Source of the DNA: Bacteroidaceae bacterium
GTDB lineage: Bacteria; Bacteroidota; Bacteroidia; Bacteroidales; Bacteroidaceae
Length of the DNA stretch: 52,676 nt
Direction: 5' to 3'
Assembly: GCA_017466325.1 (NCBI GenBank)
Contig: JAFTUK010000032.1
Coordinates: forward strand, 1-52,676
The position numbers and the translations under genes were made by a program. Below, piece after piece: positions 29,908 through 31,839 of the stretch (its first letter is position 1; every line of letters starts with the position of its first letter). The notes beneath the pieces are model-generated. The model saw only the letters and a list, made by a program, of their open reading frames with translations. It ran no database searches and was not told where the DNA came from.

Positions 29908-31839
29908 TCAAAGGTTTTCACATTCTTTTAGCCAACTGGCCGATGAGGCGTCGCTGGGCATACGCCAATCACCTCGTGGAGAGAGGCCGCAGGTGCCTAC
30001 TTTGGGACCGTCCGGCAAGCAGGAGCGCTTGAACTGTTGGTTGAAGAATCGGCGGCAGAATACAGATAACCACTTCTTTATGGTTGCATCATCATATTCG
30101 TTTTCACCAAATGCATAGCGTGCTAACATATATATCTTACTCGGGCGGAAACCGCATCTTAGGACATAGTAAAGGAAGAAATCATGAAGTTCGTATGGAC
30201 CAACCAAGTCCTCAGTCTTTTGCTTGATTTCTCCGCTTTCGTGTGCAGGTATTAGTTCTGGTGAGATGGGGGTGTCAATGATGTCTTTGAGAATCTCACG
30301 GGTTGTGGTGCTCTTTTGCACCTCTGCATACCATGCAACTATATGGCGTACAAGTGTTTTGGGGACGGAACCATTCACACTGTACATTGACATGTGGTCG
30401 CCGTTGTATGTTGCCCAACCCAAGGCCAGTTCCGACAGGTCGCCGGTTCCGATGACCATTCCATTCACCTGATTTGCAATGTCCATAAGGATTTGCGTTC
30501 TTTCACGTGCTTGTGAATTCTCGTATGTCACATCGTGCTTGGCAGGATTGTGTGAGATATCCTTGAAATGTTGCAGGCATGCATCCTTGATGCTGATTTC
30601 ACGTATGGATATTCCAAGTTGCTTCATCAGTGTTATGGCATTGGTGTAGGTGCGGTCGGTGGTGCCGAAACCAGGCATGGTAACTCCGATGATGTCCTTG
30701 CGGTTCAAACCTAATCGGTCGTATGTACCAACTGCGACAATCAAAGCCAAAGTACTGTCTAATCCTCCGCTGATACCAATTATAACTGACTTGCAATTAG
30801 TGTGTTTGAGTCTTTTGGCTAAACCAAGTGTTTGGATGTTATATATCTCTTCTGTACGCTTGTCCAGTGCATCTTTGTTCTCGGGAATGAACGGGTGTTT
30901 GCTGTAAGGTCTGCTCAGTTCAAAGGAGTGATTGGCCATCATGTCGGTGTCAATGAAGATGCAATTAGCGGTATCCTGCATCTTTGCAGAGTCGGAGAAG
31001 ATTCTGTTCTTCCGGCGCTCATTTCTGATATGTTCCACATCAATTTCGCTGAATACTAATTGTGGTTCTGTGCAGAATGGCAAGTTCTCGGCAAGGATGT
31101 TGCCGTTCTCGTATATTAAAGCCTGAGCACTGAAGACAAGGTCTGTGCTGCTTTCTCCAAATCCGGCTCCTGCATATACATATCCTCCAATGCATCGTGC
31201 ACTTTGGCTTGCAACCAGGCTTCTCAGATACTCATCCTTTCCGGCAAGACAGCTTTCTGCAGATAGAATCAGTATTATATCTGCTCCCATCATAGCCAAT
31301 TGGCTTGATGGTGGTACAGGTGCAGTTAGGTCTTGTCCTATTTCTATGGCAAAGGAGCATGATGGCGTATTGAATATTCTGTATTGGGTGATTTCTACCA
31401 GGTCGCCACATAGCCATAGCTTGGTCTCCTTAAAGTCGTGTATTGACGTAAACCAGCGCTTCTCAGCACATTCCTTGTGATTGGGCAGATATGTTTTGGC
31501 AACGACGCCTTGTATCTTGCCTTTTTGCAATACTACGGCACAGTTTGCCAGGCCAGTATTGCATGCAAGTGGCATTCCTACCACGATAATCATGTCCATG
31601 GAGCGGGTAAAGTCCATGAGTTTCATCAATGCGACTTCCGCTTCCTCTAACAGGGTCTGTTGGAAAAAGAGGTCTTGACATGTATATCCGGTAAGTCCCA
31701 ATTCTGGTGTAACAAGAATTTCTATGCCTTGTGCTTGGGCCTTCAGTATAAGTTTCTCTATTTCCTCAACGTTATATTGGGTGTCGGCAACTCTGATTTC
31801 TGGTATACCGGCTCCCACTCTTACGAATCCGTGTTTCAT
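29908..31839 (-). CDS. nadE: NAD+ synthetase with a two-domain layout but lacking the glutaminase Cys
   Basis: This enzyme amidates nicotinic acid adenine dinucleotide to NAD+. The 643-residue protein has the glutamine-dependent layout: a nitrilase-like domain (about 1-275) and an ATP-dependent synthetase domain with the P-loop SGGLDSTLALIVA. In the nitrilase domain the catalytic Glu (Glu46 in TPELGL) and Lys (Lys115 in AKTYLPN) are present. The expected Cys is Gly168: the segment reads EIGQDL where the family has EICEDL. The codon is GGA at 31338-31336, two changes away from a Cys codon. Glutaminase activity is therefore unlikely and free ammonia may be the nitrogen source. The start is set at MKHGFVRVGAG. 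Confidence 0.93.
   Translation of the reverse strand: MKHGFVRVGAGIPEIRVADTQYNVEEIEKLILKAQAQGIEILVTPELGLTGYTCQDLFFQQTLLEEAEVALMKLMDFTRSMDMIIVVGMPLACNTGLANCAVVLQKGKIQGVVAKTYLPNHKECAEKRWFTSIHDFKETKLWLCGDLVEITQYRIFNTPSCSFAIEIGQDLTAPVPPSSQLAMMGADIILILSAESCLAGKDEYLRSLVASQSARCIGGYVYAGAGFGESSTDLVFSAQALIYENGNILAENLPFCTEPQLVFSEIDVEHIRNERRKNRIFSDSAKMQDTANCIFIDTDMMANHSFELSRPYSKHPFIPENKDALDKRTEEIYNIQTLGLAKRLKHTNCKSVIIGISGGLDSTLALIVAVGTYDRLGLNRKDIIGVTMPGFGTTDRTYTNAITLMKQLGISIREISIKDACLQHFKDISHNPAKHDVTYENSQARERTQILMDIANQVNGMVIGTGDLSELALGWATYNGDHMSMYSVNGSVPKTLVRHIVAWYAEVQKSTTTREILKDIIDTPISPELIPAHESGEIKQKTEDLVGPYELHDFFLYYVLRCGFRPSKIYMLARYAFGENEYDDATIKKWLSVFCRRFFNQQFKRSCLPDGPKVGTCGLSPRGDWRMPSDASSASWLKECENL

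Follow-up and report, generated by a model that had tools for sequence, protein, structure and literature searches.

The window, a stretch of 52,676 nucleotides from a Bacteroidaceae bacterium (GenBank assembly GCA_017466325.1, contig JAFTUK010000032.1), contains a nadE gene for a two-domain NAD+ synthetase (NADS) in which the catalytic Cys of the glutaminase domain is replaced by Gly168. We consider this protein, with a probability of about 0.85, to be an NAD+ synthetase that works with ammonia only and whose former glutaminase domain persists in folded form but without its chemistry. It has lost the nucleophile together with several residues of the glutamine site; both the domain and the synthetase motif remain conserved, and the loss is both clade-wide and recurrent.

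Glutamine site of the window NadE

The window NadE scored 885 bits with NF002730 (cut-off 473) and matched the Mycobacterium tuberculosis NadE over its full length (E = 2e-137, phmmer). Its layout is that of type F enzymes, with PF00795 nitrilase-like and PF02540 synthetase domains fused. A sequence-only reading of this DNA had claimed that the Glu-Lys-Cys triad of glutamine-dependent enzymes has lost its Cys to Gly168 (codon GGA, followed by Gln), and both the codon and the alignment on Cys176 and Glu177 of the M. tuberculosis enzyme bore this out. Glu46 and Lys115, also named in that reading as retained, were aligned with Glu52 and Lys121, leaving two residues of the triad next to an EIGQDL motif. 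The changes extend further, in that Tyr127, Phe130, Glu177 and Phe180 of the M. tuberculosis enzyme correspond to His121, Cys124, Gln169 and Thr172, while the second Glu of the YRE loop (Glu132) is retained as Glu126. According to the available part of one account of the M. tuberculosis enzyme (PMC6946656), glutamine enters at Glu177 and Phe180, the YRE-loop residue Tyr127 touches the ligand of the glutaminase site, and the tunnel has its main constriction at Phe130. Judged from the alignment, the glutamine site of the window NadE is altered over much of its extent, beyond one residue.

The predicted model of the window NadE folds like the M. tuberculosis enzyme, with 3szg as the top-ranked structure, tied with other M. 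tuberculosis entries. The C-terminal segment, which in type F enzymes includes the loop region contacting the glutaminase, aligns to that of M. tuberculosis NadE, and model residues 602–629 have a predicted local distance difference test (pLDDT) score below 50. The window NadE differs from the type F enzyme of M. tuberculosis (3dla, 6ofc) in lacking the catalytic Cys and in its changed gate Glu and YRE-loop Tyr and Phe. It resembles the C176A mutant of that enzyme (3szg, 3sez, 3sdb) in that the nucleophile is removed and the fold is intact (as predicted for the window protein), but C176A was made in the laboratory, whereas the loss described here arose repeatedly in nature, has become fixed in clades and is accompanied by extra pocket changes.

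Recurrent loss of the nucleophile in the genus and family

We refer to NadE proteins without the catalytic Cys at position 168 as dead, and to those with Cys together with the Glu and Lys as live. The genomes compared are mostly incomplete metagenome-assembled genomes (MAGs), the source genome (G000) being 88% complete. A NadE match was found in 128 of the 139 genomes of the genus, and 130 copies were examined (two each from G047 and G036), of which 129 could be classified; the copy of G070 lacks the N-terminus. Gly168 is present in 14 of these, and the other 115 have Glu, Lys and Cys. All 14 dead copies retain Glu46 and Lys115. They spell Gly168 as GGC (seven), GGA (four) or GGT (three), and a sequencing or assembly error, against which the sequence-only reading had already argued, is thus excluded by 14 genomes.

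Three lineages account for the dead copies of the genus: one of ten species around the window, one made up of G054, G042 and G013, and one represented by G049. The synthetase domain alone, used so that the eroded N-terminal domain could not mislead, gave a likelihood tree (46 of the 130 rows) that required three changes, and a single dead clade was rejected (p = 0.0053 in the approximately unbiased (AU) test). The same three groups were obtained with rpoB (AU p = 1.2e-5) from 22 genomes, including 11 of the 14 with dead NadE; seven of the 30 genomes considered had no rpoB match and one had a fragment. The dead state therefore defines clades on both NadE and rpoB trees, which was the check suggested for Gly168.

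In the clade of the window the N-terminal domain remains conserved, and a fold is predicted for it. Erosion was counted over 253 positions at which at least 95% of 114 Cys-type genus enzymes have the same residue, a position being scored as lost when its residue occurred in at most 30% of rows. The main clade has lost 16 of these positions and the second clade 18; nine were lost in both (P119, Y121, F124, C168, E169, K239, T279, F373 and R626), compared with 1.1 expected. C168 is shared by the definition of dead copies and is not counted as convergence, and the other eight shared losses are convergent erosion, above all of the glutamine site. G049 has lost Y121, C168, E169, D170, W172 and four more positions. 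The Cys-type copy of G047 is counted among the 115 live copies and lies outside the 114 used here.

These alignments also speak to the idea that another residue became the nucleophile and that glutamine is still used, which we regard as very improbable. The retained Glu46 and Lys115 would suit such a replacement, but the residues at the positions of Tyr127, Phe130 and Glu177 are changed as well. The candidate put forward in the sequence-only reading, Cys197 in SAESCLAG, had to be rejected as unconserved even among the nearest relatives: the position is Cys in the window sequence alone among the 14, the Cys of G039 being adjacent, at 196. The Cys residues that are conserved in the dead clade (54, 100, 144, 161 and 216) are common in Cys168 enzymes too (57 to 114 of 114), and none of them is therefore new.

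In the main dead clade, nadE adjoins ruvC and a gene that we take to encode a DUF1573 protein, directly so in eight genomes; the locus of G002 is split over two contigs, with the ruvC side on the second, the contig of G134 is too short, and the flanks of G054, G042, G013 and G049 were outside the comparison. DUF1573/ruvC was not seen near the Cys-type copies L044–L051 and L054 (flanks of up to 5 kb), nor beside nadE in 11 named loci (3-kb flanks), and descent in place from a Cys-type ancestor is consequently not established. Before its clade diverged, the main-clade nadE may have moved or given way to a gene acquired by transfer. The three-lineage result rests on the trees and is unaffected by such a move.

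In the family Bacteroidaceae, 70 of 296 classifiable NadE copies are dead. The sample is biased, with 167 further copies (open reading frame (ORF) of at least 430 amino acids) from 29 other genera, partly picked for low scores: of the 349 genomes from other genera of the family that gave a match, 175 were read (the 30 best matches to L219 plus, in part, low scorers) and 174 were not. Because the genomes were selected, the family frequencies are not representative. Thirteen of 180 family loci were left out for an ORF below 430 amino acids (10 single-domain NadEs and three fragments). By genus, the dead copies number 14/129 in g1, 2/2 in g7, 8/10 in g9, 3/3 in g10, 1/9 in g15, 23/29 in g20, 5/9 in g21, 8/10 in g24 and 6/19 in g30, with none in the remaining 21 genera sampled. 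A FastTree phylogeny of 297 rows required a minimum of 11 changes, five of them forced by well-supported branches, and a likelihood tree of 71 of the 297 rows also gave 11 (bootstrap range 10–12, five forced).

At position 168 the 70 dead copies have Gly (51), a gap (eight), Gln (four), Ala (two) or other residues (five), so that Gly accounts for 51 of the 62 with a residue there and Ser for none. The synthetase motif SGGLDST is present in all 70, Glu46 in 61, Lys115 in 50, and Glu46 and Lys115 together in 50. Some dead lineages have additionally lost the Lys or the Glu, and others have deleted the active-site stretch up to and across residue 168, with frames of 534–586 amino acids. A single-domain NadE is the only match in 12 genomes of genera g24 and g19 (L290, L403–L411), of which nine were read and confirmed with TIGR00552 and three (G277, G342 and G490) were unread. 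G462 has an eroded two-domain NadE plus a single-domain NadE.

Among the named loci, which are the best 80 of 590 matches, three have Gly and two have Ala at the nucleophile, two of the three Gly copies having already been counted. Mediterranea massiliensis SIG138 and Bacteroides sp. SIG134 have Ala, and RGIG1661 has Gly (L207, L219, L191 for the three), in each case with the next Glu kept; by their residues, these copies are possible early stages of loss. Two genomes of genus g20, G363 (L371/L392) and G326 (L372/L387), each have a dead NadE and a distant live one, through acquisition or contamination. In G366, a single-domain NadE lies within a longer open frame.

Free ammonia and the alternatives

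That the domain is retained as a scaffold while the synthetase uses free ammonia, as the sequence-only reading supposed, is the best-supported interpretation, since whole clades are dead, the domain is predicted to fold, the synthetase motif is intact and a second full NADS was not found in 13 of the 14 dead genus genomes; we infer the use of ammonia itself. The synthetase domain would make the adenylate of nicotinic acid adenine dinucleotide (NaAD) as usual, with ammonia drawn from the cell and no longer released from glutamine, and the glutaminase domain would be kept as part of the oligomer and of the interdomain tunnel. The emptied glutamine pocket, with Gly for Cys and with the gating Glu and Phe replaced, is possibly an ammonia inlet to the old tunnel; our guess is that the repeated Gly and the replaced Phe130 and Glu177 suit an opened pocket that admits ammonia. 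Gly would also be favored by relief of backbone strain or by easy mutation (TGC to GGC, one base). The losses in related gut bacteria possibly occurred because the surrounding free ammonia suffices, and loss of the NadE glutaminase suggests a link with an ammonia-rich habitat. The available part of PMC5552732 puts rumen ammonium at 4–70 mM and names ammonium as the nitrogen source that rumen bacteria prefer.

Several observations weigh against this interpretation. The nearest named relatives (best 80 of 590 loci) are colon MAGs from water buffalo and water deer, which makes the rumen figure a proxy only. Relaxation of the N-terminal domain is weak, with a median ratio of N- to C-domain nonsynonymous divergence (dN_N/dN_C) of 1.78 in the dead clade versus 1.44 in matched live pairs (95% range 0.87–2.33). 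Retention of Glu46 and Lys115 in all 14 genus copies, and of both in 50 of the 70 family copies, would be needless in a purely inert domain. The HisH of the source genome keeps its glutaminase motifs, which means that glutamine has not been abandoned. G047 has a second, Cys-type NadE (L044, G047:C20) that groups with genus g13 sequences; its contig is probably MAG contamination, with acquisition by transfer as a possible alternative. Finally, given the incompleteness of most MAGs, including the 88% complete source genome, a partner or a second NadE could have been missed.

The kept Glu and Lys, together with the repeated Gly and the absence of Ser, would be explained if the dead domain had gained a regulatory role, such as ligand sensing at the old glutamine site. 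We consider this unlikely, given that Lys, Glu or whole active-site segments have been lost in several lineages, which argues for dispensability. The progressive erosion of the N-terminal domain in a number of relatives could instead point to a decaying gene in cells that obtain NAD by salvage. This is scarcely credible: the synthetase P-loop is kept in every dead copy, the only close pair has a low ratio of nonsynonymous to synonymous substitution rates (dN/dS), and, the Cys-type copy of G047 excepted, the searches yielded no further full NADS. None was found in the source genome, at its 88% completeness. The extra PF02540 hits of the other dead genomes are weak (18–35 bits, versus at least 100 for NadEs and 177 for the single-domain NadE L290) and include frames of 240–256 amino acids in G049, G054 and G134, all below the cut-off; most of these extra hits were unread.

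The source genome encodes two further nitrilase-fold proteins. One is AguB-like (297 bits with TIGR03381, under the model cut-off of 410) and lies beside a gene presumably for agmatine deiminase, and the other matches the amidohydrolase model NF007757. Their presence would allow a separate glutaminase subunit to dock on the dead domain or on the synthetase and to feed the tunnel, as in two-subunit (type C/R) NADS, whose existence is documented in the available part of PMC3376133. Such docking is improbable, since both proteins score far lower with NAD-synthase models. No glutaminase gene directly flanks nadE, whose nearest neighbors are DUF1573/ruvC and, in the opposite direction, rho, and hisH, approximately 3 kb away, serves another enzyme.

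An ammonia-only NadE would share its working with known systems of other build. Type N single-domain NadE, such as that of Salmonella, gives rise to the same expectation of free ammonia only (PMC3376133, available part), but it has no nitrilase domain, whereas the window NadE keeps one. Human CPS1 retains an inactive glutaminase-like domain (Cys to Ser294) and takes ammonia from its surroundings (PMC4655335, available part). By analogy, CPS1 appears the best counterpart of the window NadE, which likewise has a kept glutaminase fold, a lost nucleophile and an intact synthetase motif; the likeness is one of working, not of homology, and the two differ in enzyme, glutaminase class (Cys-His-Glu triad in CPS1) and replacement residue. 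De Ingeniis et al. 2012 (PMC3376133) classed fused NADS as glutamine-utilizing and attributed the distribution of forms to gene loss and horizontal transfer; the available part of that paper does not describe in-place glutaminase loss in fused NADS. Among the literature matches listed, with subscription journals mostly outside coverage, there was no report of a natural dead-glutaminase NADS or GuaA.

The nitrogen donor of NAD synthetases in the cell is an old question. Fused enzymes that lose the glutaminase in place, repeatedly and with staged intermediates, make the order of events readable and testable, and labels such as "glutamine-hydrolyzing" or "glutamine-dependent" are unsafe for such NadE proteins.

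GuaA and other glutaminases

The GuaA of the source genome, itself a weak synthetase hit, is 436 amino acids long with a complete synthetase part; its glutamine amidotransferase (GATase) domain matched no more than the first 74 positions of a 188-position model, and the Cys, His and Glu motifs seen in a long GuaA are absent. Such short GuaA (L435–L445, for example L003:692–2002, minus strand) occurs in 11 of the 126 genus genomes with a GuaA match. Ten of these are dead-NadE genomes (10 of the 14), spanning all three lineages, and in the eleventh (G024) no NadE was seen. Short GuaA is the only GuaA in 10 of the 12 Gly168 genomes with a detectable GMP synthase; G067 and G002 have long GuaA, and no GuaA was seen in G134 and G039. 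None of the 104 genus genomes with live NadE and a GuaA match has short GuaA. Fisher's test gave p = 7e-13 (computed with 105 live genomes; 104 is correct, G070 being unclassifiable), a value uncorrected for descent; the fair sample size is three lineages.

Among 19 sampled genomes, those outside the genus being judged by frame length and match span only, short GuaA accompanied dead NadE in eight and live NadE in one (G182). Dead NadE with long GuaA was found in G067, G304, G183 and G147, and short GuaA is thus not required by dead NadE; two further dead-NadE genomes, G186 and G205, had neither form. The short GuaA proteins are 90–100% identical to that of the source, but the DNA of nine is only 76–98% alike, which does not support a recent sweep; old transfer or differential loss may account for their distribution. 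At least 19 genus genomes (L446–L464) have a synthetase-only GuaA, 78–79% identical to the synthetase part of short GuaA, plus another GuaA match. In vitro, GMP synthetases are able to work with ammonia supplied from outside, and for many archaea separate subunits are described (PMC10526850, available part).

G000, G037, G054 and G049 have three hits each with the class I GATase model PF00117: a HisH-like protein, a frame of approximately 570–740 amino acids and the GuaA remnant. The second of these, read in G054, we take to be a fusion of a gamma-glutamyl hydrolase with a dipeptidase-like part. By PF00117, no frame fitting CarA, TrpG or PyrG was found in the four genomes; fuller sets were present in G099 (live NadE, eight hits) and G067 (dead NadE, long GuaA, six hits). 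The absence of CarA and TrpG may be plain auxotrophy. That of PyrG is odd for four genomes 84–93% complete, as CTP synthase is normally essential. PyrG was also not found in approximately 350 kb from four short-GuaA genomes, in stretches chosen by synteny with G067; a PyrG with a broken GATase may nevertheless be encoded in these genomes. The intact motifs of HisH indicate that at least one amidotransferase still uses glutamine.

At the level of sequence, the GuaA pattern hints at a wider shift from glutamine to ammonia. A set of gut Bacteroidaceae would then have undergone a repeated multi-enzyme switch to free ammonia that takes in NadE, GuaA and further glutaminases (CarA, TrpG and perhaps CTP synthase), with HisH staying behind. 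The NadE glutaminase would be lost, often by Cys to Gly, with its pocket opened as an ammonia inlet, and a working two-domain GMP synthase would be replaced by a GuaA with a truncated GATase. Stages from point loss through domain deletion to single-domain replacement would be visible in living species. We hold the chances of such a switch to be evenly balanced. If confirmed, the switch would exceed a variant of a known enzyme type.

Table 1 Features of nadE and of hisH in the window; NadE residues are numbered from Met1 at 31839
Feature	Position	Strand	Basis
nadE, two-domain NAD+ synthetase, 643 amino acids plus stop	29908..31839	-	NF002730, M. tuberculosis NadE match
N-terminal nitrilase-like (pseudo-)glutaminase domain, residues 1–290	30970..31839	-	
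C-terminal synthetase domain, residues 330–643	29911..30852	-	PF02540, 108 bits
Gly168 (codon GGA; plus strand tcc), at catalytic Cys176 of M. tuberculosis	31336..31338	-	Alignment
Gln169, at Glu177 (glutamine gate) of M. tuberculosis	31333..31335	-	Alignment; gate role from PMC6946656 (available part)
Glu46, kept acid/base of the former triad (M. tuberculosis Glu52)	31702..31704	-	Alignment
Lys115, kept Lys of the former triad (M. tuberculosis Lys121)	31495..31497	-	Alignment
Eroded YRE loop, residues 121–126, HKECAE (Y-x-E-F-Y-E in most Cys-type relatives)	31462..31479	-	Loop as in PMC6946656 (available part)
SGGLDST, synthetase P-loop, intact	30751..30771	-	Found in 70/70 dead copies
Cys197 in SAESCLAG, earlier candidate nucleophile, unconserved	31249..31251	-	
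HisH, catalytic motifs intact, in a hisIE-hisF-hisA-hisH run	25972-26631	-	

Elsewhere in the window, positions 7491–9875 (minus strand) encode a dihydroorotate dehydrogenase B-like NAD-binding subunit fused to a glutamate synthase-like part (NF009414, 1350 bits), and positions 48257–49387 (plus strand) encode a protein that begins with a phage non-structural domain of the A1S_2505 family and may be left over from a mobile element.
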